In this document: positions 4,947 through 23,626 of the stretch, in pieces
Position numbering within the stretch: the stretch's first letter is position 1
Layout: every line of letters begins with the position of its first letter
IMG/VR virus record: IMGVR_UViG_3300045051_001327
Coordinates: 1 to 28,526 of that record
Direction: 5' to 3' (one strand)
DNA from: a virus
Length of the DNA stretch: 28,526 bases
Program-made: the position numbers and the translations under genes
The notes under the pieces: generated by a model
What the model was told of the DNA's origin: nothing
Seen by the model: only the letters and a program-made list of their open reading frames with translations
Databases searched by the model: none

Positions 4947-5933
4947 CTAAAAATTGTCCAGACAAATCCCGTTCCACTCCTCGACAAGACGTGGTAGGAC
5001 GACGTCGGATCGGAAGCGCTCGGCGTTCTGGCAAGCAAGATCGCCGATGGTCTTCCAGTCTTCGTCCTTGAAAGACAGCGCAAGACGGACGAGGTCCTCG
5101 GCGCCGCTGATCGATTCGTACAGAACTCTCGCCTTTCCCATGTACTCCGCCGCGCCGACGGCTGTTGCGTTGGCAATGACGAAAGCACCGGTCGCCTGCG
5201 CCTCGACGATCGAAATCGGCATTCCGAAGGCGTGCGAGAATTCGTCGTACGTCGAAATATAGATCGCGGCGTCTCGGACAAGCTTCGAAGCTTCGACTCT
5301 GGAGAGGTTTGTACGGATACGGACGTAACCCCCGAGGGAGTCGTTCAGCGCCGTCAGCGCATCGACGACCTGAGACTCCTTTCCGATAACCAGATTTACC
5401 GCCAGCGTAAAGTTTGCGAAGGCGAATAGTCTGTTTCCGATAGTGACGAAGTCCTCCAGCCTCTTCGTCGGAAGGCCAGCCGAAAGCCGGACGACGGAGT
5501 TTCTGTCCTTCGGACTCCGATAGTAGAGGTACGGATCGTACGCAACAGGCAGCTCTACGACGCCGGGGACCTTACGAGCGAGGTGCGGAAAGGCGAAGAC
5601 GCGGCGGACTGCCGGATGCGCAACCATACGGGCCGCCAGCGCCTCGTCCCAGTCAAACGAGTGCGCCCGGATCGTCACCAACCCCCTCGGGAGCTGGTCT
5701 ATGTAGTACGACGCCGTCGTCATGTGGTGGACGTGGACGACGTCCGGACGGACGGCGACGAGAGCCTCCCGAAGGGACTTCCGGTGGACCGGAACGGTCG
5801 GCGGGTCGCCGTAGCCGGACGTCGGAGACCAGACCTCGACCTGGATCCCGCGGCCGAGGATGTACGAGATCTCGGCATCGACGTACGACTCAGAGCCCTG
5901 CGGGAAGTGAGCAAGGACGTAGAGGACCTTCAT
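4947..5933 (-). CDS. Glycosyltransferase family 4 (GT-B fold)
   Basis: This is 328 residues. It starts at the ATG at 5933, overlapping the stop of the GT2 gene upstream (ATGA). The N-terminal Rossmann half runs from MKVLYVLAHFP through DVVHVHH at about 64-70. The second half has SAGLPTKRLED at 151-161, the position of the GT4 donor-binding loop, and EFSHAFGMPISIVEAQATG at 231-249, the glutamate-containing donor motif of retaining GT-B enzymes. It would transfer a sugar from a nucleotide-sugar donor to an acceptor that cannot be read from sequence. It is coupled to a GT2 enzyme, so the pair may act sequentially on one glycan. Confidence 0.88.
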   Translation of the reverse strand: MKVLYVLAHFPQGSESYVDAEISYILGRGIQVEVWSPTSGYGDPPTVPVHRKSLREALVAVRPDVVHVHHMTTASYYIDQLPRGLVTIRAHSFDWDEALAARMVAHPAVRRVFAFPHLARKVPGVVELPVAYDPYLYYRSPKDRNSVVRLSAGLPTKRLEDFVTIGNRLFAFANFTLAVNLVIGKESQVVDALTALNDSLGGYVRIRTNLSRVEASKLVRDAAIYISTYDEFSHAFGMPISIVEAQATGAFVIANATAVGAAEYMGKARVLYESISGAEDLVRLALSFKDEDWKTIGDLACQNAERFRSDVVLPRLVEEWNGICLDNF

Positions 5934-6544
5934 AGTCCGTGCTTCCTCTTGATCGCCTCGAACGCCTCGGCCGACGGGATCCGGACGCTGATCCCGTCGT
6001 CGATGATGAACTTCTCGAAGAGGCAGTACGGGACGTACACGCCCCGCCGCCCCAGGGCCGCCATCGTCAGCCAGAGGTCCCAGTCCTGGAAGCGCCGGAT
6101 CGCCGGATCGAAGCCGGGGAAGGACGATCGCCGAATCAGGCTCGTCGTGTCGATGTAGTTGCCGCCGCGGAGACGCTCCGGACTCCACTTCCCCGGGAAG
6201 ATCTCCCCTACCGGAAACTTATGGGAGGTCTCGAAGTTCGTACTGTACTTGTCGGTGTTGTACCGGTACCCGCAGTAGGCGAAGTCGGCGCCGCTCGTCT
6301 CGAGCGCCGGAATCATCTTCTCGAAGATGGACTCGGAAATCACCGAGTCGTCGTCGACGAAAAGAAGGTACGGCTGGGTCGCAGCCCGAGCCCCCGCGTT
6401 ACGCTTCTCGTTCCCGTTATCTTCCCCGTGGACGACGACGATCTGCGTCGCGCCCGCGGCCTTGACGGACGGGACGCACCGGTTCGCGAGGAATCCGACC
6501 CGAGAGTCGATCGTCGGGATCACGACGGTAACGGGATACGACAT
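5930..6544 (-). CDS. Glycosyltransferase family 2 (GT-A fold)
   Basis: The 204-residue protein has the GT2 layout: strand PVTVVIPT at 4-11, NEKRNAGA at 45-52, the metal-binding FVDDDS at 62-67, an acceptor-side loop with NYIDTTSLIRRS at about 129-140, and QDWDLWLTM at 153-161. This is the complete catalytic domain of a short inverting GT2 without membrane segments. It would act in the cytoplasm on a nucleotide sugar. The start follows directly after the stop of the small gene upstream and has only a weak ribosome site. Its stop is coupled to the GT4 start. Confidence 0.88.
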   Translation of the reverse strand: MSYPVTVVIPTIDSRVGFLANRCVPSVKAAGATQIVVVHGEDNGNEKRNAGARAATQPYLLFVDDDSVISESIFEKMIPALETSGADFAYCGYRYNTDKYSTNFETSHKFPVGEIFPGKWSPERLRGGNYIDTTSLIRRSSFPGFDPAIRRFQDWDLWLTMAALGRRGVYVPYCLFEKFIIDDGISVRIPSAEAFEAIKRKHGL

Positions 6545-8794: not shown

Positions 8795-9026
8795 TCCGTC
8801 TCTCCTTCTCCGTCTCGATCGCGCGATCCAAGTACCAGCGGGCCTTCTCGAGGTCCTCGACGATCTTCGTCGGATCCTTCAGTCCGGCCCGAGCGATGTA
8901 CTTCGCGGCGTTCCAGCGGTAGGCGTCCGCCGTCAGGCCCCACGCCTGAAGGCACTTCCAGACCTCGTGCGGGACGTCCCCGCCGTAGTGCGAAGGGTGA
9001 TTGACAGCCTCCTTCGGTGCGCTCAT
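8781..9026 (-). CDS. DUF3310 (SaV-like) phage protein
   Basis: The 81-residue protein has the family signature VNHPSHYGG at 8-16, then AYRWNAAKYIARAG and a terminal EDLEKARWYLDRAIE, which is the usual DUF3310 layout and length. The family is common in phages near nucleotide metabolism or replication genes; its role is not established. The start ATG at 9026 overlaps the ThyX stop (ATGA), which places it directly in the ThyX unit. Confidence 0.88.
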   Translation of the reverse strand: MSAPKEAVNHPSHYGGDVPHEVWKCLQAWGLTADAYRWNAAKYIARAGLKDPTKIVEDLEKARWYLDRAIETEKERRNAKA

Positions 9027-9829
9027 ACCTTCGAGTGCTTCGGCACCCATTCCCCCTTCTCGTTTCGGCCGAAATCCTGGAACAGCGCGGGCCAGTTCGC
9101 AGTTGCGGCATTCGCGATCCTGTCGAAGACGTACCGGATCTCGACCTCGGCCCCCGCCGCGGTCCGCATCTCCAGGACGTGCCGCATCGCCCGGAAGTTG
9201 ATCGTGATCCCGATCGTCGTCGACATCCCCTGCGGGGCGAAGCGACGGATGAACGACGTCCACTTCTTCTTGTACTCGAAGCTCCGTCCGGGCTCGTCGA
9301 GACCGAGCTTCGCGGCGAGCTTCGAGCAGAAGTTCTCGTCTTCGAGGAACTTCAGCTCGCACATCTTCTCGATCTCCGGCGTGATCTCCGGGTCCTTCGG
9401 GATCCAGAGGCCGAAGTCGTCCATCCGGACGTACCGGAGGGACTCCTGGGAGGGCGAGAGTCCGGCCCGGTGCCGGACGAGCTCGTGCGTGAAGACGCGG
9501 GAGACGTCCCGCAGAATCCAGTGCGTCGAGCCGTGCTCGACGACGGAGCCGTGCTTCGACTTCAGGATGTTCTCGATGTACTCCCGGTTGCCCTCCCGGA
9601 TCTTCGTGATGTTCTTGTTGTGCTCGCCGACCCCGAAGGACCGGTAGCAGAGGCGACCCATGATCTCGGTCAGGAGCTCGGAGTCCGACGGCCGGTCCGG
9701 CGCGTCGATGTTCTTGTCGAACCAGTTGTTGCCGACCTCGGCGTACGTCTCCCGCAGGAAGCGCTCGATCTCCCGCTCGTTGAGACCGGACTCCCCGACG
9801 AGATAAACTTCCGGAGTGACTCGGTGCAT
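9023..9829 (-). CDS. thyX: Flavin-dependent thymidylate synthase ThyX
   Basis: The 268-residue enzyme has the ThyX layout. An N-terminal region with GRLCYRSFG at 58-66 precedes SVVEHGSTHWIL and VSRVFTHELVRHR. The signature RHRAGLSPSQESLRY starts at residue 119, which is the RHR plus eight residues and serine variant rather than the shorter RHRx7S form. STTIGITINFRAMRHVLEMRT follows at about 204-224. It makes dTMP from dUMP using methylenetetrahydrofolate and FAD with NADPH, supplying dTTP for replication. The ribosome site GGAGAGGG directly precedes the ATG. It is the first gene of a coupled pair with DUF3310. Confidence 0.95.
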   Translation of the reverse strand: MHRVTPEVYLVGESGLNEREIERFLRETYAEVGNNWFDKNIDAPDRPSDSELLTEIMGRLCYRSFGVGEHNKNITKIREGNREYIENILKSKHGSVVEHGSTHWILRDVSRVFTHELVRHRAGLSPSQESLRYVRMDDFGLWIPKDPEITPEIEKMCELKFLEDENFCSKLAAKLGLDEPGRSFEYKKKWTSFIRRFAPQGMSTTIGITINFRAMRHVLEMRTAAGAEVEIRYVFDRIANAATANWPALFQDFGRNEKGEWVPKHSKV

Positions 9830-12248: not shown

Positions 12249-12896
12249 TCAAAAACTGAATCCGCGATTCGTCCGGTACCAGGGCTTCCCAGGGATATTG
12301 ATCCCAAAGGATCTCCCCCACTTCGCGACCAGTTTCCGGTGCTGTTCCTCCCAGGAGCACCTCTTCTTCGCCTCCGCCTTCGTTCCGCCAGTGATGCTTC
12401 CGGGGAGAGGATCGAGTTCGCTGAATCGCTCGTAGATCTTCCCCTTCGAGATCATCGTCAGAGCGTAATCGTCATCCTCCACATAAGCCGGGAAGTACCG
12501 TTCGTCGTAGAAGCCGATCGCCGTCTCGTTCCCGCGTCGGTGGACCTGGACCGAGAACTGGAGGTACGACAGGAAAAGATCGACGTCGGAGCGACTCGCT
12601 AGGAGCTGTCGAGCGGCCTCCAGACGCTCGGTCGACCAGATGATGTCGTCCTGGAGGATCACGAGTCCGCCGAACTCGCCCTCGACGAAGGCGCGACGCA
12701 GGAAGAGATTCCAGGAGCCGGAGACACCGAGGTTCCGCGGCGGACGCTCGACGGGGACGGCGATCGGGATCTCCTGGCGCCCGTTGTCCAGGACGAGGGC
12801 ACGGTCCGGAGGACGGATCGCCTCCAGGAACGACCTGTTCCGGACGAGGAGGTCGACCCGCGTCAGCGTCGGAATCGCGACGAGAAGCCCCGTCAT
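12249..12896 (-). CDS. Glycosyltransferase, GT2-like
   Basis: The 215-residue protein starts at the ATG at 12896, overlapping the upstream TGA (ATGA). It has the GT-A pattern: VAIPTLTRVDLL at 6-17, NLGVSGSWNLFL at 55-66 and the metal-binding ILQDDIIW at 80-87. It continues with a helix that would hold the acceptor loop and a basic C-terminal part (GKPWYRTNRGFSF). It lacks membrane spans. It sits at the end of the glycan cassette that includes a GT9-like and a GT4 fusion, so it likely transfers one sugar of the same glycan. Confidence 0.8.
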   Translation of the reverse strand: MTGLLVAIPTLTRVDLLVRNRSFLEAIRPPDRALVLDNGRQEIPIAVPVERPPRNLGVSGSWNLFLRRAFVEGEFGGLVILQDDIIWSTERLEAARQLLASRSDVDLFLSYLQFSVQVHRRGNETAIGFYDERYFPAYVEDDDYALTMISKGKIYERFSELDPLPGSITGGTKAEAKKRCSWEEQHRKLVAKWGRSFGINIPGKPWYRTNRGFSF

Positions 12897-14446
12897 GGAA
12901 AGAACCTCCCCAGCCAGCGTTCGAAACGCTCCGGCGTGTACGCCGAGAAGAGCATGTGGTCGGTCCCCGGAAAGTCTCTCCCGAAGGCCCACGGGTTCGG
13001 CTGGACGAAGTGGGCGATCCGGGTCGACTCCGGGTAGCAGAGGAACTGCGGCGTCCCCTCGTACCAGCCGACGATGTTCATCGCCGAGTGCGAGGTGAGC
13101 ATCCCCGAGCAGAGCTGGACGAGACGCGCGACTCCCGGGACCGTCAGACGATCGACAAGGCAGGTCACGCCGGGCAGGTCGAGCACGATCTCCCGGTGCG
13201 GCCGGTCCGCGCCGTAGGAGCGGCCGACCAAAACAACGGGAACACCGCGCTTCCGGCAGATCTCGAAGGCGGTCCTGTAGAGCTCCTCCGGAAGATTCCG
13301 CTCGAACGAGCTGGCCGAGATCGCCGCCAGCAGGAACGGCCGGACCGGCAGGAAGCGCTCCAGAATCTCGAGGTCCCCGGGGGACGGGTAGAACCGGAGG
13401 GGCTTCGGCTTGCAGCTCGGGAACCCCGGCGGATGGAAGATCTGGTCGGACGTCGGGTGTCCGCGGCGGCGGCGCTCCTGCGGGTCCGACGAGGCGATCC
13501 AGGGCGTCTCGTCGTGGATCCGAAGGAACTCTCGCCGGGGGTGCCACTCGAAGAGTTCCCTCGCGAACGGATTGTGGGAGTTCAGGAAGAGCGTCGCCCG
13601 ACGATCCGGACCGAGCGTCTCCAGACGCTCGTAGACGCTCGTCGAGTAGAGGTACATGAAAACGTCTCCGAGGCCGCCGCCCGCCTCGAACCGCATCTCC
13701 TTCGAAGTCGGCAGCGACGGGGGCGTGAAGTCGCCGAGAGTCAGCTTGACCCGGAGGCTCCTCTCGAGGAACGAGAGGAAACGGTCCCGGAATCGCGAGA
13801 CGTCCGGGAGCGACGGCTGGCCGTAGCGGACGCCGAGCTCCCGGAGGAGGCTTGTCCGGTCGTCGTCCGGACCGACGTAGGAGACCGGCGTGCCCATCGC
13901 GGCACACGGGAGCGCGACGTGCATCCGGGTCGTCGTCACGAGGGCCGCGCGGGCGTAGCGGTCGAGCGCCTCGACGGCAAGTCTCCACTTGTCGGCGAAC
14001 GGCGCCGCTGGGACGTTGTGCGTCCCTCCGGCGCGTCCGGGGACGTCGACGAAGATCTCGCCGGATCTCGGGCCGTCGTATCGCGGCAGCGTCAGGGTCG
14101 GACAGCCGATCAGCTCGCACTTCCAGCCGCGCTCGGCGAATCTCTGGTGGGAGACGGGGTCCCGCAGGCCGATCGGCCAAGGACTCCGTCCGAGCCAGTC
14201 CTTCGTCCGGCCGTCCATAAGATGCGCCGGGTAGTTGATTCCGGCGAAAAGGATCCGCGAGGCGTCCTGATCGAACGGCGCGAAGAGCATCCCGGCGGCG
14301 ACGCAGGGACCGTAGTCATCCCAGTACGGATTCGCCTCGTCCCGGAAGACGGCTCGCGACGGCCCCAGAAGACGGGAAAGCGCAGCGACCTGGAGAAGAT
14401 CCCCGAGGTTCTCCGCACGATCCCGATTGAACGTCATGATCCTCAC
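12893..14446 (-). CDS. Fusion: polysaccharide pyruvyltransferase-like plus GT9-like glycosyltransferase
   Basis: This is 517 residues, starting at the GTG at 14446 (GTGA overlap, GAGGT 6 nt upstream). Residues 1-200 look like a polysaccharide pyruvyltransferase: NLGDLLQVAALSRLLG at 13-28 and VTTTRMHVALPCAAMGTPVSYVG at 170-192 match the (S/T)xRxH...P..A.G.P motif of WcaK/PssK-like enzymes. Residues 250-517 resemble GT9 heptosyltransferases: GGGLGDVFMYLYST at 256-269, then LVGRSYG and, near 450-470, LTSHSAMNIVGWYEGTPQF, the GT9 donor loop. Pyruvyl transfer from phosphoenolpyruvate to a sugar and addition of a sugar could be combined in one polypeptide. The GT9 half is a weaker call than the pyruvyltransferase motif. 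Confidence 0.7.
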   Translation of the reverse strand: MRIMTFNRDRAENLGDLLQVAALSRLLGPSRAVFRDEANPYWDDYGPCVAAGMLFAPFDQDASRILFAGINYPAHLMDGRTKDWLGRSPWPIGLRDPVSHQRFAERGWKCELIGCPTLTLPRYDGPRSGEIFVDVPGRAGGTHNVPAAPFADKWRLAVEALDRYARAALVTTTRMHVALPCAAMGTPVSYVGPDDDRTSLLRELGVRYGQPSLPDVSRFRDRFLSFLERSLRVKLTLGDFTPPSLPTSKEMRFEAGGGLGDVFMYLYSTSVYERLETLGPDRRATLFLNSHNPFARELFEWHPRREFLRIHDETPWIASSDPQERRRRGHPTSDQIFHPPGFPSCKPKPLRFYPSPGDLEILERFLPVRPFLLAAISASSFERNLPEELYRTAFEICRKRGVPVVLVGRSYGADRPHREIVLDLPGVTCLVDRLTVPGVARLVQLCSGMLTSHSAMNIVGWYEGTPQFLCYPESTRIAHFVQPNPWAFGRDFPGTDHMLFSAYTPERFERWLGRFFP

Positions 14447-16164
14447 GACTGCACCTCGAGAAGTCTCTCCGCGGCCCGACGTGCCGCGACGTCCCAGGTG
14501 TACTTCGTCACAATCTTCTCGCGAAGCTCGTTAATCTTCAGACCGCGAGCTCCGACGGCGTCGCTCATCAAAACAGCAAGCTTCCTGATCGACCGGACCC
14601 CGAACCTCGAGAAGAGCTGATCCTTGTACCAGTCGGAGATCCAGTCGCCCTCCGGATACTTCTTCACGCCGTCCGGCTTAAAGAGGAGCGCCTCCGGACC
14701 GAAGATCTCCGTGTGGCAGGTGTTGTCCGGCACGATCACCGGCAGGCCGCAGGCTGCGGCCTCGGCCGCGGGCAGATTGAAGCCCTCGCCGCGCGAGGCC
14801 GAGACGTAGGCGTTCGCGCCGCAGTAGATCTTCGCCATCTCATGCTCGTCGAAGGAGCCCTCGAGCGTCCAGATCGGAACGTTGTAGTTCGCGAACTGTT
14901 TGTAGATCTTCGCGTTCCAGGCGGGCGGCGAGTGCGTCAGGCCGATGACGAGGTGGACGTTCCGCTTTCCTCGGAAAGCGAGCTCGGCGGCGTCGGCGAT
15001 AACGTCCCAACCCTTCCGGAAGCCCGGCAGACCGATCGTCAGGAAGACGAAGCCGTCCGGGACCCCGACCCGCCCGCGCCGGGCCGTCGAGATCAGGCGG
15101 CAGGGCAGGAGCGTCCGGCGTCCGAGCGGCCGGAAGATCGTCGGATCGACGCCAAGTGGCATGACCCGCATCGGCAGGCGGACGCCGGAGTCCCGGAAGA
15201 CCTCCGCGTTCCAGGACGACGGCGTCCAGAGCTCGTCGAAGTTCGCGTTCGCGCGCTTCACCATGTCCTCGTGTACACGGACCGAGGTCTCCTGCATCGT
15301 CCAGACGATCCGGTGCCGGTCTCCCCGGGAGACGTGGTCCGGTCCCATCATCCGCAGGAGCGGCGCCTTCGGAGAGATGAGGATGTTCTTGTGGACGTTG
15401 AGACGGGTCCGGAGGTCTTCCTTAACGTACACCGGCTCCTTGTGGGAGTCGTCGATCCGGACCGACATCGAGTTCGCCAGCCGGAAGAGGATTTCACGGT
15501 TGGCCTTTCCGTAGCCGGTATACTGGTACAGATGTCCCACCCACAAAACTCCCGGCGGAAACGTCTTCGGCTCGACCGGCTTCGGAGCTACCGCCGTGCT
15601 CGTCAGGTCCGAGATCTTCGGCGCCGGAACCGCGGTCGAAGTCTCGCCTGACGCCTTAAATTCCACAACAGCCTCGGCCATCGAGTCCATCGCACGCATC
15701 TCGTGCTCGCGCCAGACCCAGGTCCTCGGGAGTTGCAGAAAGGTCGTCCCGGTCTCCACGAGCGCGATCGCGAGCTCGACAGTCTCGTTCCCGGGCCGGA
15801 CCGCGTTCCGCTCCGCCCAGCGTGCCAGGAGCCGCCGCCCGGCCGCCGTCGGACGAATCAGGAGCGTGTCGAGCGAGATCCGGCCGATCCCGGAGAAGAC
15901 CCCCGGCCTCTTCGGTGGGGCGCCGATGCGGTCGACGAAGGCCGCGACGTCCCAGGTCTCGCGCAGGACCGGCCAGACGCGCGCCGAGTTGATCTGGCCG
16001 CCCGACGCGACGAACAGGAAGCAGTCCTTCTCGATCGTGAAGCGCTCGGCCGCGTCGACGAGCGCGGCGCAGACGGACGGCCCGGGGACGTGCGGACCGA
16101 CCGTGACTCCCTTGATGCGACCGAAGAGCGGCGAGGGGGATCCCTTGAACGTGACGACGATCAT
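14443..16164 (-). CDS. Fusion: GT-A-like N-terminus plus GT4 glycosyltransferase
   Basis: This is 573 residues, starting at the ATG at 16164 (ATGA overlap). The C-terminal half is a confident GT4: VLWVGHLYQYTGYGKANREI near 205, a second Rossmann strand FVFLTIGLPGFRKGWD near 370, and EMAKIYCGANAYVSASRGEG then FNLPAAEAAACGLPVIVPD near 440-475 with the donor glutamates. The first 160 residues are a separate domain (IVVTFKGSPSP, CFLFVASGG, LDTLLIRPTAAGRRLLARW, TFLQLPRTWVW) whose pattern resembles GT77-like nucleotide-diphospho-sugar transferases. A Pro/Ala-rich linker (about 175-200) joins them. Possibly two transfers by one protein. Confidence 0.8.
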   Translation of the reverse strand: MIVVTFKGSPSPLFGRIKGVTVGPHVPGPSVCAALVDAAERFTIEKDCFLFVASGGQINSARVWPVLRETWDVAAFVDRIGAPPKRPGVFSGIGRISLDTLLIRPTAAGRRLLARWAERNAVRPGNETVELAIALVETGTTFLQLPRTWVWREHEMRAMDSMAEAVVEFKASGETSTAVPAPKISDLTSTAVAPKPVEPKTFPPGVLWVGHLYQYTGYGKANREILFRLANSMSVRIDDSHKEPVYVKEDLRTRLNVHKNILISPKAPLLRMMGPDHVSRGDRHRIVWTMQETSVRVHEDMVKRANANFDELWTPSSWNAEVFRDSGVRLPMRVMPLGVDPTIFRPLGRRTLLPCRLISTARRGRVGVPDGFVFLTIGLPGFRKGWDVIADAAELAFRGKRNVHLVIGLTHSPPAWNAKIYKQFANYNVPIWTLEGSFDEHEMAKIYCGANAYVSASRGEGFNLPAAEAAACGLPVIVPDNTCHTEIFGPEALLFKPDGVKKYPEGDWISDWYKDQLFSRFGVRSIRKLAVLMSDAVGARGLKINELREKIVTKYTWDVAARRAAERLLEVQS

Positions 16165-17611: not shown

Positions 17612-17829
17612 AGAGCACTCGCCTTTCTCCGATCGAGCTCCTCGCGAAGAACGCGAAGCTCCCATTTGGCGTCCGCGACGGCCCGACGGAGCTCCGTCGA
17701 TTCGTACCAGCGCTGCCCACGAAGGAGCTGCTCCGACTCGTGGATCAGCCGTGTCGTCGTCGAGATCTGCTCGGCCAGCCAGGAATCCGTCGACGATCGA
17801 ACGAGCTTCCGGAAACGATCGGATGGCAT
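17608..17829 (-). CDS. Hypothetical helical protein, second paralog of a tandem pair
   Basis: The 73-residue protein starts at the ATG at 17829 with GGAGGT about 9 nt upstream and a TGATG overlap with the preceding stop. It contains RSSTDSWLAEQIS, TTTRLIHESEQLLRG and LRVLREELDRRK. The end is the part most similar to the neighbouring paralog at 17396-17611. The function is unknown. Confidence 0.7.
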   Translation of the reverse strand: MPSDRFRKLVRSSTDSWLAEQISTTTRLIHESEQLLRGQRWYESTELRRAVADAKWELRVLREELDRRKASAL

Positions 17830-18281
17830 CACAGGCCGACCTCCTGGATCCGGACGACCGCCTCGACGGCCCCGGCGTACTCCGGCGTCCCCTCGAGCGC
17901 CGCGAGGTCGAGGATCGTCTGGAGGCAGGTCCCGTTCCGACCGACCCGGATCGGTGCCCGAGCACCCGGGACGGTCTTCAGGATCGTCAGGCCGGACGCC
18001 TCGAAGGCCGCCGCGTCCATGCACTCGAGAACCAGGAAGCCCTCGTGACCGGCGAGCTCGTGCGGGTACTTCCCGCCGTGCAGCTCCCGCACGAGGCCGA
18101 GCCACTTCCGCTTCGAGATGCAGAAGTCGTTCGGCGCCGGGCAGGGACAGACGCCGGACCACTGACCAAGACAGCGGACGTTCTCGCGCCACAACCGACC
18201 TAAGACGGCGGCGCCTTTCGCGAGACGCGGCGGGATCATCGCCCGCTTCCGAGCGGCGATCGTCTCCTGGATCGTCGACAT
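17829..18281 (-). CDS. Hypothetical protein with Cys cluster
   Basis: The 150-residue protein starts at the ATG at 18281, 7 nt after GGAG, immediately after the stop of the nuclease gene. A cysteine cluster CLGQWSGVCPCPAPNDFC lies near residues 37-54. The remainder has KYPHELAGHEGFLVLECMD, GARAPIRVG and then a helix. The Cys set could bind a metal or an Fe-S cluster, but the spacing matches no family I know. Confidence 0.7.
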   Translation of the reverse strand: MSTIQETIAARKRAMIPPRLAKGAAVLGRLWRENVRCLGQWSGVCPCPAPNDFCISKRKWLGLVRELHGGKYPHELAGHEGFLVLECMDAAAFEASGLTILKTVPGARAPIRVGRNGTCLQTILDLAALEGTPEYAGAVEAVVRIQEVGL

Positions 18282-18282
18282 A

Positions 18283-18903
18283 TCAGGTCTCCGAACAGAG
18301 ATTCTCGAATTCCGACCGACTGACGATCAGACCGCCGACACGGAAACTCCCGTCGAGCAGGTACTCGACGACCTCCTCGGCGCACTTGACCGGACCGGCG
18401 AAAATTTTCGATGACGGAATCCGGAAGAGGCACCAGTCGAATTCCGCCGCCAGCTCGTCCTTCCGCCGGTCCACATCGATCTGCCGACCCCAGTGCCAAG
18501 CGGCACCGTCGCACTCGACCAGGACGGTGCGCTGGACGATCGAACCGGACTTCGGTTCCTCCGACCGGAGCCAGAAGTCGAAGGTGTACCGGTCGAGTCG
18601 GAAGTTACAGCAGAGAACGACCTTCCTGACGTCGTCGGAGACTTTAACTAGGGCGGTCTCCTCCGGACGTCCGGAGGAGTCGCGAGGATCCCAGCCGACG
18701 GTCCGTCTCCGGGAGAGCGCCTCGATCAGGCGGACCCCGAACAGAGCCTCGAGAGGTGAGCGGGATCGGAGACGAAGATCCGCCAGAGAAAGCGCCAGGA
18801 GCCGATCGGACTCCGGTCGGTCGAGACGGACCGGTTCGGCGGCGGCGACGTGGGCGTCGATCGCCGTACGGAACTCCGAGGTCAGACGTCGGGGGTCTCT
18901 CAT
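18283..18903 (-). CDS. DUF559/VSR-like PD-(D/E)XK nuclease
   Basis: The 206-residue protein has the endonuclease layout: SPLEALFGVRLIEAL at about 49-63, then RYTFDFWL near 105-112 (candidate Asp109) and VLVECDGAAWHWGRQIDVDRRKD in two parts at 127-149 with Glu130 and Asp132. The E-x-D-G-x-x-W/H then R...DRRRD pattern is typical of DUF559 and very-short-patch-repair-type nucleases. No basic DNA-recognition domain is fused. It lies just downstream of the repeat-rich intergenic region and primase gene, so a role in DNA processing or degradation of host DNA is plausible. The exact cleavage specificity is unknown. Confidence 0.72.
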   Translation of the reverse strand: MRDPRRLTSEFRTAIDAHVAAAEPVRLDRPESDRLLALSLADLRLRSRSPLEALFGVRLIEALSRRRTVGWDPRDSSGRPEETALVKVSDDVRKVVLCCNFRLDRYTFDFWLRSEEPKSGSIVQRTVLVECDGAAWHWGRQIDVDRRKDELAAEFDWCLFRIPSSKIFAGPVKCAEEVVEYLLDGSFRVGGLIVSRSEFENLCSET

Positions 18904-19072
18904 AACTCGTTTAAAGGACAGTTAGGACAGTTGGACAGTTTTTTCATTCCACGCTCTCGCGCGCGCGCACGCGCGCGCGTGAAGGTGATGAATCGGGAAT
19001 TCTGTCCAACTGTCCTAAAAACCGCAAAATTGACGAAATTTTCAAGTTTTCGCACCGCAACTGTCCTTTAAA
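18904..19072. repeat. Intergenic inverted iterons around alternating CG tract, candidate replication origin
   Basis: A 169-bp gene-free segment lies directly after the primase-helicase stop. Its outer arms TTTAAAGGACAGTT (18910-18923) and AACTGTCCTTTAAA (19059-19072) are perfect inverted copies. The inner arms 18922-18938 and 19002-19018 are a perfect 17-bp inverted pair. Together they give three GGACAG copies per side in opposite orientation. Between them is a 24-nt alternating pyrimidine-purine tract (18958-18981) that includes the palindrome CACGCGCGCGCGTG. An AT-rich run (19017-19050) follows. Iterons, AT-rich DNA and proximity to a primase-helicase fit a replication origin; a regulatory site is the alternative. 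Confidence 0.7.
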
Positions 19073-21358
19073 TCAGAACTGATTCTCCCTGGAAATCCGG
19101 ACGTGCGTCTCCGAGAGTCCGACTCCGAGCCGCCATTTGTGCCCACCGGCCTTCTCGACGTTGTACCCGAGGTCCGCCAGCCTCCGTCCGAACGCCGTCC
19201 CGGACATCGGCTCCTCGTGACCCATCTCCCGGCGATGCCAGTCGACGAAGGCGTCGTACAGGTCGGACGCCTTCGCTCGGAGCTGCGGCATCAGAACGCA
19301 GCAGTCGGAGAAGAAGCGTCCGACGACGTCGGCGTCGGAGCGGTACTCCGCCGTCGCCGAGAGAACCTCCGGCGGATCGGCCAGACCGCCCTCGCGCCAA
19401 CGCCGGGCGCCCTCGACCGCCCAAGCGAGAATCCCCTCACGCTCGGCCATCAGTTTGTCCATCAGCGTGTAGTCGATCCGGTCCGGACCGATGACGACGG
19501 AGAACGGGATCAGGCGGACCCGGCGCCAGATGCCGAAGTCCATTCCTTTGATCTCCGGCTTGTTGTTGGTCGCCATGAAGATCTTCCAGGTGGGACGGAG
19601 CGTCCAGAAGTCCTCACGCATCCGGCGGACCTTCAGCTCGTCGCCGCCCGTGAGCTGCTTGACGAAGTTCTCCGCCAGACGTCGTCCGTCCTCGACCTCG
19701 ATCGTCGTGACGAATCTTTTTCCGGCGAGATCGGCCCGTTCGGTCGGATGCGGGACGCTGCTCCTCGTCATGACGAGATCCGGAGCTGCCTCGGCGGCGT
19801 AGTCCGGACCGATGACGTTCCGGAGCGCACCGAGGAAGGTCGACTTTCCGTTCGCGCCCTTTCCGTAGGCGATCGGAAGGATATGTTCGCGGACGATGCC
19901 GGTCAGAGAGTATCCGGCGAGCCGCTGGAGGTAGCCGACCAGAACGTCGTTGTCGTTCATGATCTCGCGCAGGAACGACTCCCAGCGCGGCGCCTTCGCG
20001 GCCGGATCGTACGTCGTCGGACAGACCTTCGTCAGGAGATTCTCTCGAAGATGTTCTCCGAATGTCCCGTCTTTCAGATTCAACGTGCCGTTCAGGCAGT
20101 TCAGCATCCAAGGATCTCCGTCGAACTGCTCCGGCTCGACGGCCCGCATGTGTTGGGCGACGCGCAGTGTCGCGGAGATCCGTTCGGACTTCTGACGTCT
20201 CTCTCCGGCGTTGACGGCGATCTCGACCGACCGACCGAAAGCGGCGCCGACCCTGTCCGGAACCCAACGCCTTCCGTCCCAGACGACCCACTTTCTCCAA
20301 GGGTCGCAGAAGACGAAGTCTTTGCCGAAGTGCGAGACGAACTGGTTTGCGGTGTCGACGTCGGTGACGGTCTCCTCCGGATCGTCCTTCCGACGCTTCG
20401 TCTTCTGTCCGAACCCCTGTTCGAGAAGCTCCTTCGCCGACTTCTTGAAGTCTCCGCCGTACTTCAGGAACGTGATCGCGGCCCACTTCGAGTAGGTCGC
20501 GTCCGGTTCGAACGGCGCGGCGTTCGATGAGAAGACGTGCAGGTTATCGCCGCAGAAGCCGACCGAGGCGGAGTGTCCGTCGTCCGTCTTGCCGGGCCGA
20601 CGCCAGTAGACGATCGGTCCGTCGATCTTCGCCTTCCGCCAGCCGTACGGTTCGAGAACGGCCTCCCAGGTCGCGCGGGCGTTGAAGTCGTCCCCGGGAG
20701 CCGTCTCGCCGGTCTTGTCGGGATTCCCCTTCTCGCCGGGACCGATGATCTTCTTCGGCGCCCGATTGAACGAACGGGCCGTCTCGAGCAGCGTCGTCCG
20801 CTCCTCGGCGGTCAGCGTCGGGATCTCGGTCAGGAACGGCCCGTCGGCGTGGACGTACGCCTTCTCGAGTGGGTGGCATTTCGGATGGCTCGGTGGCGCC
20901 AGCACGTAGCCGCCCTCGCCGCGCGTCTCGATCAGAACGTGCTTGTCCTCGGCGACGGCGAGCTTCTGGTTGTGCTCGACGGCCGGTGCGCGGAAGTAGA
21001 AGTGCGCGCCGCCCTTCGGCGTCGCGATCCGAGGCAGCCTCTCGACGAGGCCCGGCCGGACAGCCCGGACGGCGTCGATCCACGGGACGACCAGAGACGG
21101 ATCGTCGAAGTCGATGATCTCGAGGCCGCCGGAGACGACACCGCCGATGATCGCGATGCCGATCGGCCGATCTACGGAGAACCACTTGTGCAGTTCGAAG
21201 TCGATCGGTCGACGCTTCTCGTACGCCTTCCAAGCGACGGCGGGCGCCTTCGAGCCGTTCGCTAGGACCGGAACGATGGACAGACCGGAAGCGAGGTACG
21301 CTCTCGCTGCGGCGAGTATGTACTCCGGGGAGGCCGTCCCCGGTGCCGTGTCCGACAT
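19073..21358 (-). CDS. Primase-polymerase fused to SF3 (D5-like) helicase
   Basis: This is 761 residues, starting at the ATG at 21358 (alternative TTG at 21373). The N-terminal archaeo-eukaryotic primase (prim-pol) domain has GLSIVPV near 25 and a catalytic IIDFDD at 81-86 (Asp83/Asp85), followed by KGGAHFYF at 115-122. A linker with acidic and basic patches follows. The helicase part has D5_N-type sequence up to about 470, then Walker A GKGANGKST at 499-507, a TTIEVEDG Walker B-like strand near 551-558, IFMATNNKPE (sensor 1) at 593-602 and IWRRVRLIPF at 610-619 holding the arginine finger. It would prime and unwind the phage chromosome. It lies beside the candidate origin. Confidence 0.93.
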   Translation of the reverse strand: MSDTAPGTASPEYILAAARAYLASGLSIVPVLANGSKAPAVAWKAYEKRRPIDFELHKWFSVDRPIGIAIIGGVVSGGLEIIDFDDPSLVVPWIDAVRAVRPGLVERLPRIATPKGGAHFYFRAPAVEHNQKLAVAEDKHVLIETRGEGGYVLAPPSHPKCHPLEKAYVHADGPFLTEIPTLTAEERTTLLETARSFNRAPKKIIGPGEKGNPDKTGETAPGDDFNARATWEAVLEPYGWRKAKIDGPIVYWRRPGKTDDGHSASVGFCGDNLHVFSSNAAPFEPDATYSKWAAITFLKYGGDFKKSAKELLEQGFGQKTKRRKDDPEETVTDVDTANQFVSHFGKDFVFCDPWRKWVVWDGRRWVPDRVGAAFGRSVEIAVNAGERRQKSERISATLRVAQHMRAVEPEQFDGDPWMLNCLNGTLNLKDGTFGEHLRENLLTKVCPTTYDPAAKAPRWESFLREIMNDNDVLVGYLQRLAGYSLTGIVREHILPIAYGKGANGKSTFLGALRNVIGPDYAAEAAPDLVMTRSSVPHPTERADLAGKRFVTTIEVEDGRRLAENFVKQLTGGDELKVRRMREDFWTLRPTWKIFMATNNKPEIKGMDFGIWRRVRLIPFSVVIGPDRIDYTLMDKLMAEREGILAWAVEGARRWREGGLADPPEVLSATAEYRSDADVVGRFFSDCCVLMPQLRAKASDLYDAFVDWHRREMGHEEPMSGTAFGRRLADLGYNVEKAGGHKWRLGVGLSETHVRISRENQF

Positions 21359-21425
21359 TCGGACCCCTCTCAACCCGCGCTACCGTTCCCCGAACCCTTT
21401 GCCCATTAAGTCGGTTGCCTCTAGC

Positions 21426-22279: not shown

Positions 22280-23593
22280 TTACTTTGCGTAGGCCAGTAC
22301 GTTCTTCTTCACCTCCTCTTCCGTCGTGCCCGCCGGTGTCGCGATATAGACCGTCTCCTGACCGTCCCGGTCGAGGAAGGCTCGTCCGGCCAGAACCTTC
22401 CCGAACTCCTCGTACAGAAATTCGACCTGCGGCTTCCGGAGATCCTTCGAGGACTCGACCCCGTAGAGTGACCGGATCATCGACTTCGCCTCGGCGCCCT
22501 TGAAGTACGGATGGATGTGTCCGTTCGCCGAGCAGCCCTGCCTCCGGCACTTATGTCCGTCGTCCGGCCAGCGCATCTCGCCCGCCCTGGTCATCATGAC
22601 CTTGATGTCCTCGAGCGACGCGGCGGGCTGGTCCGGCTGGATCGGCGTGACGCCGAAGAAGACCTTCAGCTCCTCGCAGGACTCCTCCGGGGTCGACGGC
22701 GGCGGGACCGGCTCCGGCTCGATCGGATCGTCCGGCGTTCCGGGAGGGACAGCTAGTGCGTCCGCGGCGGCCTTGACGGTCTCCGGATCCGCCTGCGCGA
22801 CCGTCCGGATCGCCTCCGCGGTCTTCTCGACCGGCGTCTGGTCCGGGACGATCAGGATCGGCTCGGTCGGCTCGGCGACCGGGGCGTCCGGAGCGTCGAG
22901 CATCTCGCCGACGTGCGGGGCGAAGAGCTCCGCGAAGGCCCGCTTCTTCGTGACGTCGTGGACGGAGTACTTCGGCATCCAGTCGTAGCGGGTCTTCGTG
23001 CAGGTCACGAGGAACTTCGAGTCCTTCGCCTTCTTGTTCTCCTCGGTATGGCACCTCATTGCAATATCGAAGAGGTACTCCGTCTGCTTGTCGGCGTCGA
23101 GCAGGAACTCGCCGGTCTTCTTCAGGATCTCCTCGCCGGACTTGCTTGTCGCTTCCATGTATTCGTCTTTTTCACGGAACGACAAAATCACATTCATCGG
23201 CAGCTCCGTGAGCATCCCCAGGAAGGCGGCGAAGCGGCGCTTCTCGACGCCCCAGTCGCCGCGGGTCATCGTCTCGTTGCCGCGTTTGTTCTTGATGTAG
23301 TCGACGATGTCCTGGATCAGATCCAGGTAGAAGACGGTCGCCGAGTCGATGACGAGCGTCTCGAAAGCGCCGGGATGCGCGCGGATCCAGGCCAGGATCG
23401 GTTCGAGCTGGCGCCAGCGGTTCGCGACCTTGACCTTGAAGTCGTACTTCCCGATGTACGGCTGGGAGCCCTTCTCGGAGTCGACGATGCAGACTTTCGG
23501 GAAGCTGAGTGCGAACCGGGTCTTCCCGGTGCCGCCCTTCCCGAACAGGGCGATCTTCAGGTACTTCTTCTGCTTGACGGGGTCTTCGAACAC
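22280..23593 (-). CDS. RecA-like AAA_24 ATPase (Sak4-type recombinase-like) with zinc-binding C-terminal part
   Basis: This is 437 residues, starting at one of two tandem GTGs (23593 or 23596) after AAGGAGG. The first 230 residues are the AAA_24 core: LFGKGGTGKTRFALSFPK with Walker A at about 18-25, VDSEKG at 38, LVIDSATVFY with the Walker B Asp83, and TCTKTRYDWMPK near the C-terminus of the domain. Sak4 proteins promote annealing or strand exchange with the partner ssDNA-binding protein, and the next gene is such a candidate. The C-terminal third has a disordered Pro/Glu linker and CRRQGCSANGHIHPYF near 350, a possible zinc site. The fused tail is unusual for this family. Confidence 0.78.
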   Translation of the reverse strand: MFEDPVKQKKYLKIALFGKGGTGKTRFALSFPKVCIVDSEKGSQPYIGKYDFKVKVANRWRQLEPILAWIRAHPGAFETLVIDSATVFYLDLIQDIVDYIKNKRGNETMTRGDWGVEKRRFAAFLGMLTELPMNVILSFREKDEYMEATSKSGEEILKKTGEFLLDADKQTEYLFDIAMRCHTEENKKAKDSKFLVTCTKTRYDWMPKYSVHDVTKKRAFAELFAPHVGEMLDAPDAPVAEPTEPILIVPDQTPVEKTAEAIRTVAQADPETVKAAADALAVPPGTPDDPIEPEPVPPPSTPEESCEELKVFFGVTPIQPDQPAASLEDIKVMMTRAGEMRWPDDGHKCRRQGCSANGHIHPYFKGAEAKSMIRSLYGVESSKDLRKPQVEFLYEEFGKVLAGRAFLDRDGQETVYIATPAGTTEEEVKKNVLAYAK

Positions 23594-23626
23594 CACGTTC
23601 CTCCTTCTTCCTATCCCCACTTCATC

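Follow-up and report, generated by a model that had tools for sequence, protein, structure and literature searches.

What is the function of the 169-bp gap, filled with inverted short repeats, that follows a predicted primase-helicase gene in the virus genome fragment studied here? The stretch of DNA that we analyzed (hereafter, the window) is an entire 28.5-kb IMG/VR virus record, a linear fragment (IMGVR_UViG_3300045051_001327; 28,526 nt). A preliminary description of this DNA had proposed that the gap is a probable replication origin. The features that bear on this proposal are the following.

17829-18281, minus strand: ORF with a homolog directly after the element in the relatives L004-L006
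18283-18903, minus strand: nuclease-like ORF with a weak match to PF18741, below the cut-off; located elsewhere than beside the element in L004-L006
18904-19072, no strand: whole element, predicted replication origin; the complete intergenic gap, 169 bp
18910-18923, plus strand: outer inverted-repeat arm TTTAAAGGACAGTT, 14 bp, 100% matched; contains iteron 1 (18916-18923)
18922-18938, plus strand: inner inverted-repeat arm TTAGGACAGTTGGACAG, 17 bp, 100% matched
18925-18932, plus strand: iteron 2, GGACAGTT
18933-18940, plus strand: iteron 3, GGACAGTT
18946-18993, no strand: imperfect central palindrome enclosing the C-G core; 23-nt arms, 74% complementary
18958-18981, no strand: 24-nt alternating purine/pyrimidine (CG/CA/TG) tract
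19002-19007, minus strand: iteron 4, GGACAG followed by AA
19002-19018, minus strand: inner inverted-repeat arm pairing with 18922-18938
19008-19015, minus strand: iteron 5, GGACAGTT
19016-19058, no strand: A/T-richer stretch on the primase side, between inner and outer iterons; candidate unwinding element
19059-19072, minus strand: outer inverted-repeat arm pairing with 18910-18923; contains iteron 6 (19059-19066)
19073-21373, minus strand: primase-helicase, proposed initiator, 766 aa; PrimPol (PF09250), D5_N (PF08706), DUF5906, and a Pox_D5 C terminus
19172-19201, minus strand: recognition helix SGTAFGRRL of the predicted C-terminal winged helix, residues about 725-734

The repeat arrangement given in the preliminary description holds in every particular. 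GGACAG occurs three times on each side (18916, 18925, and 18933 on the plus strand; 19002, 19010, and 19061 on the minus strand), and both inverted pairs, the 14-bp outer (18910-18923/19059-19072) and the 17-bp inner (18922-18938/19002-19018), are perfect. They end where they had been said to end: one arm reaches 19072, a single base short of the primase stop codon, and the opposite arm stops six bases before the ATG of the nuclease-like ORF. The facing sets point inward and are separated by 63 bp, an arrangement of two iteron sets around a central region that characterizes PICI-type origins. The bare hexamer is not rare in the window (24 occurrences versus 17 expected); its distinctive traits here are clustering and the TT that follows it. 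The 8-mer GGACAGTT is found five times in the window (0.52 expected; none of 100 shuffles reached five), in each case inside the element.

At the center of the element lies the alternating CG/CA/TG tract, 24 nt long as described; the next longest alternating purine/pyrimidine run across the window spans 11 nt. This C-G/C-A alternation departs from the AT-rich center of PICI origins. The AT-rich stretch noted earlier as neighboring the tract corresponds to A/T-richer sequence on one side only (19016-19058), which is partially conserved in relatives and predicted to form a side hairpin. Folded as a single strand, the element reaches -50.7 kcal/mol, versus -24.5 +/- 3.3 for shuffled sequences (z = -8.0). 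Scanning positions 18700-19300 for a sigma-70-like promoter and an intrinsic terminator revealed neither, in agreement with the earlier view that no intrinsic terminator accounts for the element.

The gene adjoining the element encodes, as had been proposed, a primase-polymerase/SF3 helicase. Its profile matches to PF08706 (5.6e-30), PF19263 (3.6e-10), and PF03288 identify an SF3 helicase of the D5 type, and by profile comparison its PrimPol domain matches structures of ORF904 of plasmid pRN1. As in ORF904, an AEP/PrimPol domain, an SF3 helicase, and a C-terminal winged helix (here modeled) are combined in one protein. The neighborhood also encodes a Sak4-like annealing protein (22280-23620) and a DinG/XPD-like helicase, indicating that the element lies in a replication/recombination block. 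Elsewhere in the window, we noted by eye an ORF resembling a ThyX-type thymidylate synthase (9023-9829, minus strand) and several large glycosyltransferase-like ORFs (4947-6544 and 12249-16164, minus strand), the latter an unusual bulk for a 28-kb phage fragment.

Conservation in relatives, a check suggested in the preliminary description, is strong. Four viral contigs (L003-L006) whose primases are 75-88% identical to that of the window keep the element at the same position, beginning right after the primase stop; the L003 contig stops within the element. A site directly 3' of the initiator's stop is what P4 crr, PICI, and pRN1 origins have in common, and it is found both in the window and in L003-L006. 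In L004-L006 the C-G core is kept, with substitutions that preserve its alternation, and the gene after the element differs from the nuclease-like gene of the window; the element therefore does not belong to that gene. In relatives of about 71 and 73 kb, all copies of GGACAGTT lie at this site except for one stray copy in one of them, and neither these two genomes nor the window contains a second GGACAGTT cluster. A broad pattern search for a C-G core between GGACAG arms returned only the known relatives and apparent chance matches, mostly in coding DNA. The joint absence of an inflection in GC skew and of repeat conservation had been named as grounds for refuting the origin proposal. Repeat conservation is borne out. 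Cumulative skew shows no clear inflection where the element lies, be it in the window, in Acidithiobacillus phage AcaML1, or in the two relatives of about 71-73 kb, a result that is uninformative because skew was not separated from gene orientation.

Beyond close relatives, a scan for paired GGACAGTT yielded at least 119 stretches. At least four GGACAGT within 300 bp were present at 32 of the 119 listed loci, versus 7 of the 120 listed for the reversed motif, which served as a control. Where such clusters neighbor a recognized D5/SF3 primase, they are located 3' of it, typically at 8-39 nt from the stop codon, and the primases concerned are only about 28-45% identical to that of the window. 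Many GGACAGT clusters sit apart from any recognized SF3 primase. Dense clusters in both orientations without a recognized SF3 primase adjoining occur, for instance, at L012, L013, L040, L045, L090, L100, and L108, and two others (L041, 433-639; L046, 4247-4314) lie 3' of helicase/primase proteins of the AAA_25 type, which is RecA-like rather than SF3.

The layout extends further than the repeat sequence. We examined 53 primase homologs encoded on genome contigs, most of which are planctomycete or actinobacterial. GGACAG clusters are absent from all of them, and many carry another iterated 7-mer, ruling out GGACAGTT as a universal mark of this primase family. Forty-eight of these homologs entered a count of 7-mers. 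In 10 of them, the 330 nt 3' of the stop contain five or more copies of a 7-mer other than that of the window, a number reached in none of 186 control tiles and none of 39 upstream windows; in 20, such a 7-mer has at least four copies just 3' of the stop. By eye, these elements share a plan in which two or three iterons are followed by an arm that is often similar to TTTCCGGTTAA..GC, then by an alternating tract (for example, TACACGCGCACGCGCGTA), the mirror image of the arm, and iterons in inverted orientation. Iterons in both orientations were present in all 39 elements analyzed, close same-strand iterons are spaced 8-11 bp apart in 86 of 94 cases (mode, 9), and the gap between facing arms is commonly 45-80 bp. 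Alternating purine/pyrimidine runs of at least 13 nt occur in 15 of 67 primase 3' regions, versus 8 of 848 control tiles, and 17 of 40 elements fold with z <= -3, versus 0 of 37 control stretches. These controls are based on composition and position, and the relatives compared are not fully independent. Since elements were picked by repeated 7-mers, degenerate iterons are missed and the geometry statistics describe detectable elements; at about 30 of 70 primase loci no iteron cluster was detected within 350 nt, and the rule is thus not universal.

Named replicons show the same range. The full plan is present 3' of the primase in Acidithiobacillus phage AcaML1 (iteron TCTGACGGG, core TACACGCGCGCGCGCGTA) and Arthrobacter phage Karkharias (iteron GAGTGACAC). 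Plasmids of B. paralicheniformis and B. glycinifermentans carry it 3' of a P4-family primase with (AT)n-type cores; the Singulisphaera plasmid pSINAC02 has GGGTACT repeats 3' of its P4-family primase, and pPL62-4 has, by eye, apparent GGGAC-type arms 3' of its P4-family primase. No such repeats were found 3' of the primase in pGEOTH02, a Thermaerobacter plasmid, or an S. anulatus plasmid, and the 3' side of the primase of Bordetella phage BPP-1 is without iterons. In Karkharias, the annotated hypothetical gene gp59 (PQ184797.1; L388, 3496-3837) overlaps the iteron/alternating-tract element and is possibly a spurious call. The archaeal Methanoculleus virus L4768 has GGGGCA/TGCCCC-type repeats 3' of its primase-helicase (L389, about 2640-2920) that may follow the same plan.

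A candidate for the factor that reads the iterons is the C terminus of the primase itself. Its last 145 residues were modeled with a mean pLDDT of 83.5 and show the order of elements of a winged helix; the closest structural matches, at modest E-values, are the C-terminal region of the ASFV PrimPol and RFX DNA-binding domains. A TxFG recognition helix is predicted at 14 of 17 loci with GGACAG and at 2 of 23 loci with other iterons, a difference that is not significant once kinship is counted: on the helicase tree, GGACAG changes only about four times, leaving 2-4 independent pairs. Strong as the raw correlation is, we rejected a strict recognition-helix code for the iteron on this ground, and the apparent pairing of helix and iteron is best treated as a lead, not proof. 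The small zinc protein suggested earlier as a possible binder is not required by our explanation.

How does the element compare with characterized origins? Those of SV40 and papillomaviruses also combine an SF3 initiator acting as a double hexamer with inverted short sites, but their origin-binding domain is N-terminal and of another fold. The annotated cis required region for replication of phage P4 (crr) offers a closer parallel. It starts 46 nt past the stop of alpha, an SF3 primase-helicase; its 8-bp repeats recur every 9 bp on one strand, and inverted copies face them at a distance of about 55 bp. The P4 type 1 repeat, GGTGAACA(G), resembles GGACAG in its core only and is distinct from the GGACAGTT of the window. 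P4 further differs in its AT-rich spacer, its duplicated 120-bp unit, the lack of a C-G core, and a separate ori, which like crr carries type 1 repeats; its primase is of the Toprim type, not AEP (PMC4234260), whereas the window protein has a PrimPol domain (PF09250).

PICI/SaPI origins directly follow rep and consist of two iteron sets flanking an AT-rich center; they were tested together with rep in E. coli, and the authors of that study regarded the organization as absent from every other bacterial replicon known (PMC6092414). For its origin, SaPI Rep relies on its C-terminal domain (PMC7581432). Our element shares the position and the two iteron sets around a central region but differs in its alternating C-G center and in its setting, phage-sized genomes (about 71-73 kb in relatives). 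In pRN1, a stem-loop 3' of orf904 is required and its stem must be intact; the authors reported no iterons in pRN1 and none that were origin-like in BIP-1, and predicted a stem-loop in phages encoding proteins with AEP, SF3, and winged-helix domains (PMC4234260). The window resembles pRN1 in domain composition and in a site directly 3' of the gene; a long stem-loop of predicted high stability is present there together with iterons, which pRN1 lacks according to its authors. SCCmec Cch2 has a D5_N-type helicase with iterons 3' of its gene, and its C-terminal domain binds the iteron-bearing putative origin; binding there depends on direct repeats alone, and the polymerase/primase is separate (PMC7581432). 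We regard the element as a distinct variant within the group formed by P4 crr, SaPI/PICI, and pRN1 origins, set apart by its alternating C-G core and its phage-sized setting.

Repeat conservation, the same architecture 3' of many SF3 primase-helicases, and the parallel with P4 crr support the original proposal. We infer that the element is, with high probability, a replication origin or an essential cis-acting initiation site recognized by the product of the adjoining gene. Since many phages and some plasmids have this layout, with other repeats, after comparable genes, it is very probably a place where replication starts. In the mechanism that we envision, each arm would be occupied by copies of the PrimPol-SF3 protein, one every 8-9 bp, whose C-terminal winged helix would contact the inward-facing GGACAGTT iterons. 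Two SF3 rings, facing each other at a distance of about 60 bp, would thus be loaded over the palindromic alternating C-G core. Using ATP, they would part the strands, either at this core or in the adjacent A/T-richer stretch, and so expose template for the PrimPol domain to prime; two forks would then depart, making replication bidirectional. Counting against an origin is that a C-G core should be hard to melt, unlike the AT-rich center of PICI origins.

Other functions must be weighed against initiation at this site. P4 has separate iteron regions in ori and crr, and by analogy the element could be an auxiliary site of the crr kind that assists replication starting elsewhere. We consider this unlikely: neither the window nor the relatives of about 71 and 73 kb contain a second GGACAGTT cluster, and PICI origins at this position suffice with rep (PMC6092414). 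The element might instead be an operator or promoter region, its iterons being bound by a regulator or by the primase so as to control downstream genes or to autoregulate. It does lie upstream of same-strand genes and its inverted sites are operator-like; an autoregulatory side role would be compatible with an origin. As the main function, however, such control is quite improbable, given that the element stays with the 3' end of the primase gene while the next gene differs between the window and L004-L006, and that no sigma-70-like promoter was found in 18700-19300. Moreover, the 9-bp pitch and the 45- to 80-bp facing gap recur with different sequences behind SF3 primases, and in P4 the annotation of crr describes a region that replication requires in cis.

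The stable fold of the element, the excess of folded elements over controls, and the need for stem integrity in pRN1 (PMC4234260) raise another alternative, in which the repeats merely form a stem that ends or stabilizes an mRNA or serves as a pRN1-style origin signal. We rejected a pure stem-loop model on finding stems less constant than iterons across elements, and we give this alternative little credence: arms have unequal numbers of units (e.g., 3 + 2 or 2 + 3) with spacing still near 9 bp, many elements with good iterons fold no better than shuffled sequences, and no terminator was found. Finally, the repeats look like terminal inverted repeats, the block contains the Sak4-like annealing protein, and some GGACAGT clusters lie near terminase genes, as might be expected of packaging, recombination, attachment, or transposon-end repeats unrelated to initiation. 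Only 135 bp separate the arms, without a transposase, and the same geometry with changed sequence recurs 3' of SF3 primases rather than of integrases or terminases, making this the most far-fetched of the alternatives.

Replication initiation at the element, if correct, carries broader implications. Phage replication origins are seldom identified from sequence alone, and a portable signature, in which inward iterons with a 9-bp pitch and an alternating core directly follow an SF3 primase gene, would allow origin prediction in many uncultured phages and extend the organization described for PICIs to phage-sized genomes. The C-G core may act through Z-DNA, through a cruciform, or solely by providing spacing and symmetry, and named phages are now at hand for testing its role. 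More speculatively, and with considerable doubt, we raise the idea that a single class unites the SF3-primase origins of phages, satellites, and plasmids, with a fixed pitch of about 9 bp, a fixed facing gap of about 60 bp, and a free choice of iteron sequence, for whose recognition a few residues of an RFX-like winged helix would be responsible. The palindrome at the center, in which purines and pyrimidines alternate (as C-G in GC-rich replicons and as T-A in AT-rich ones), would in this class be a supercoil-sensitive Z-DNA or cruciform switch that loads two SF3 rings. Separately, the reversed-motif control of our scan contained inverted TTGACAG clusters of similar style (L293, 4780-4983; L361, 3462-3665), which are possibly further origins.
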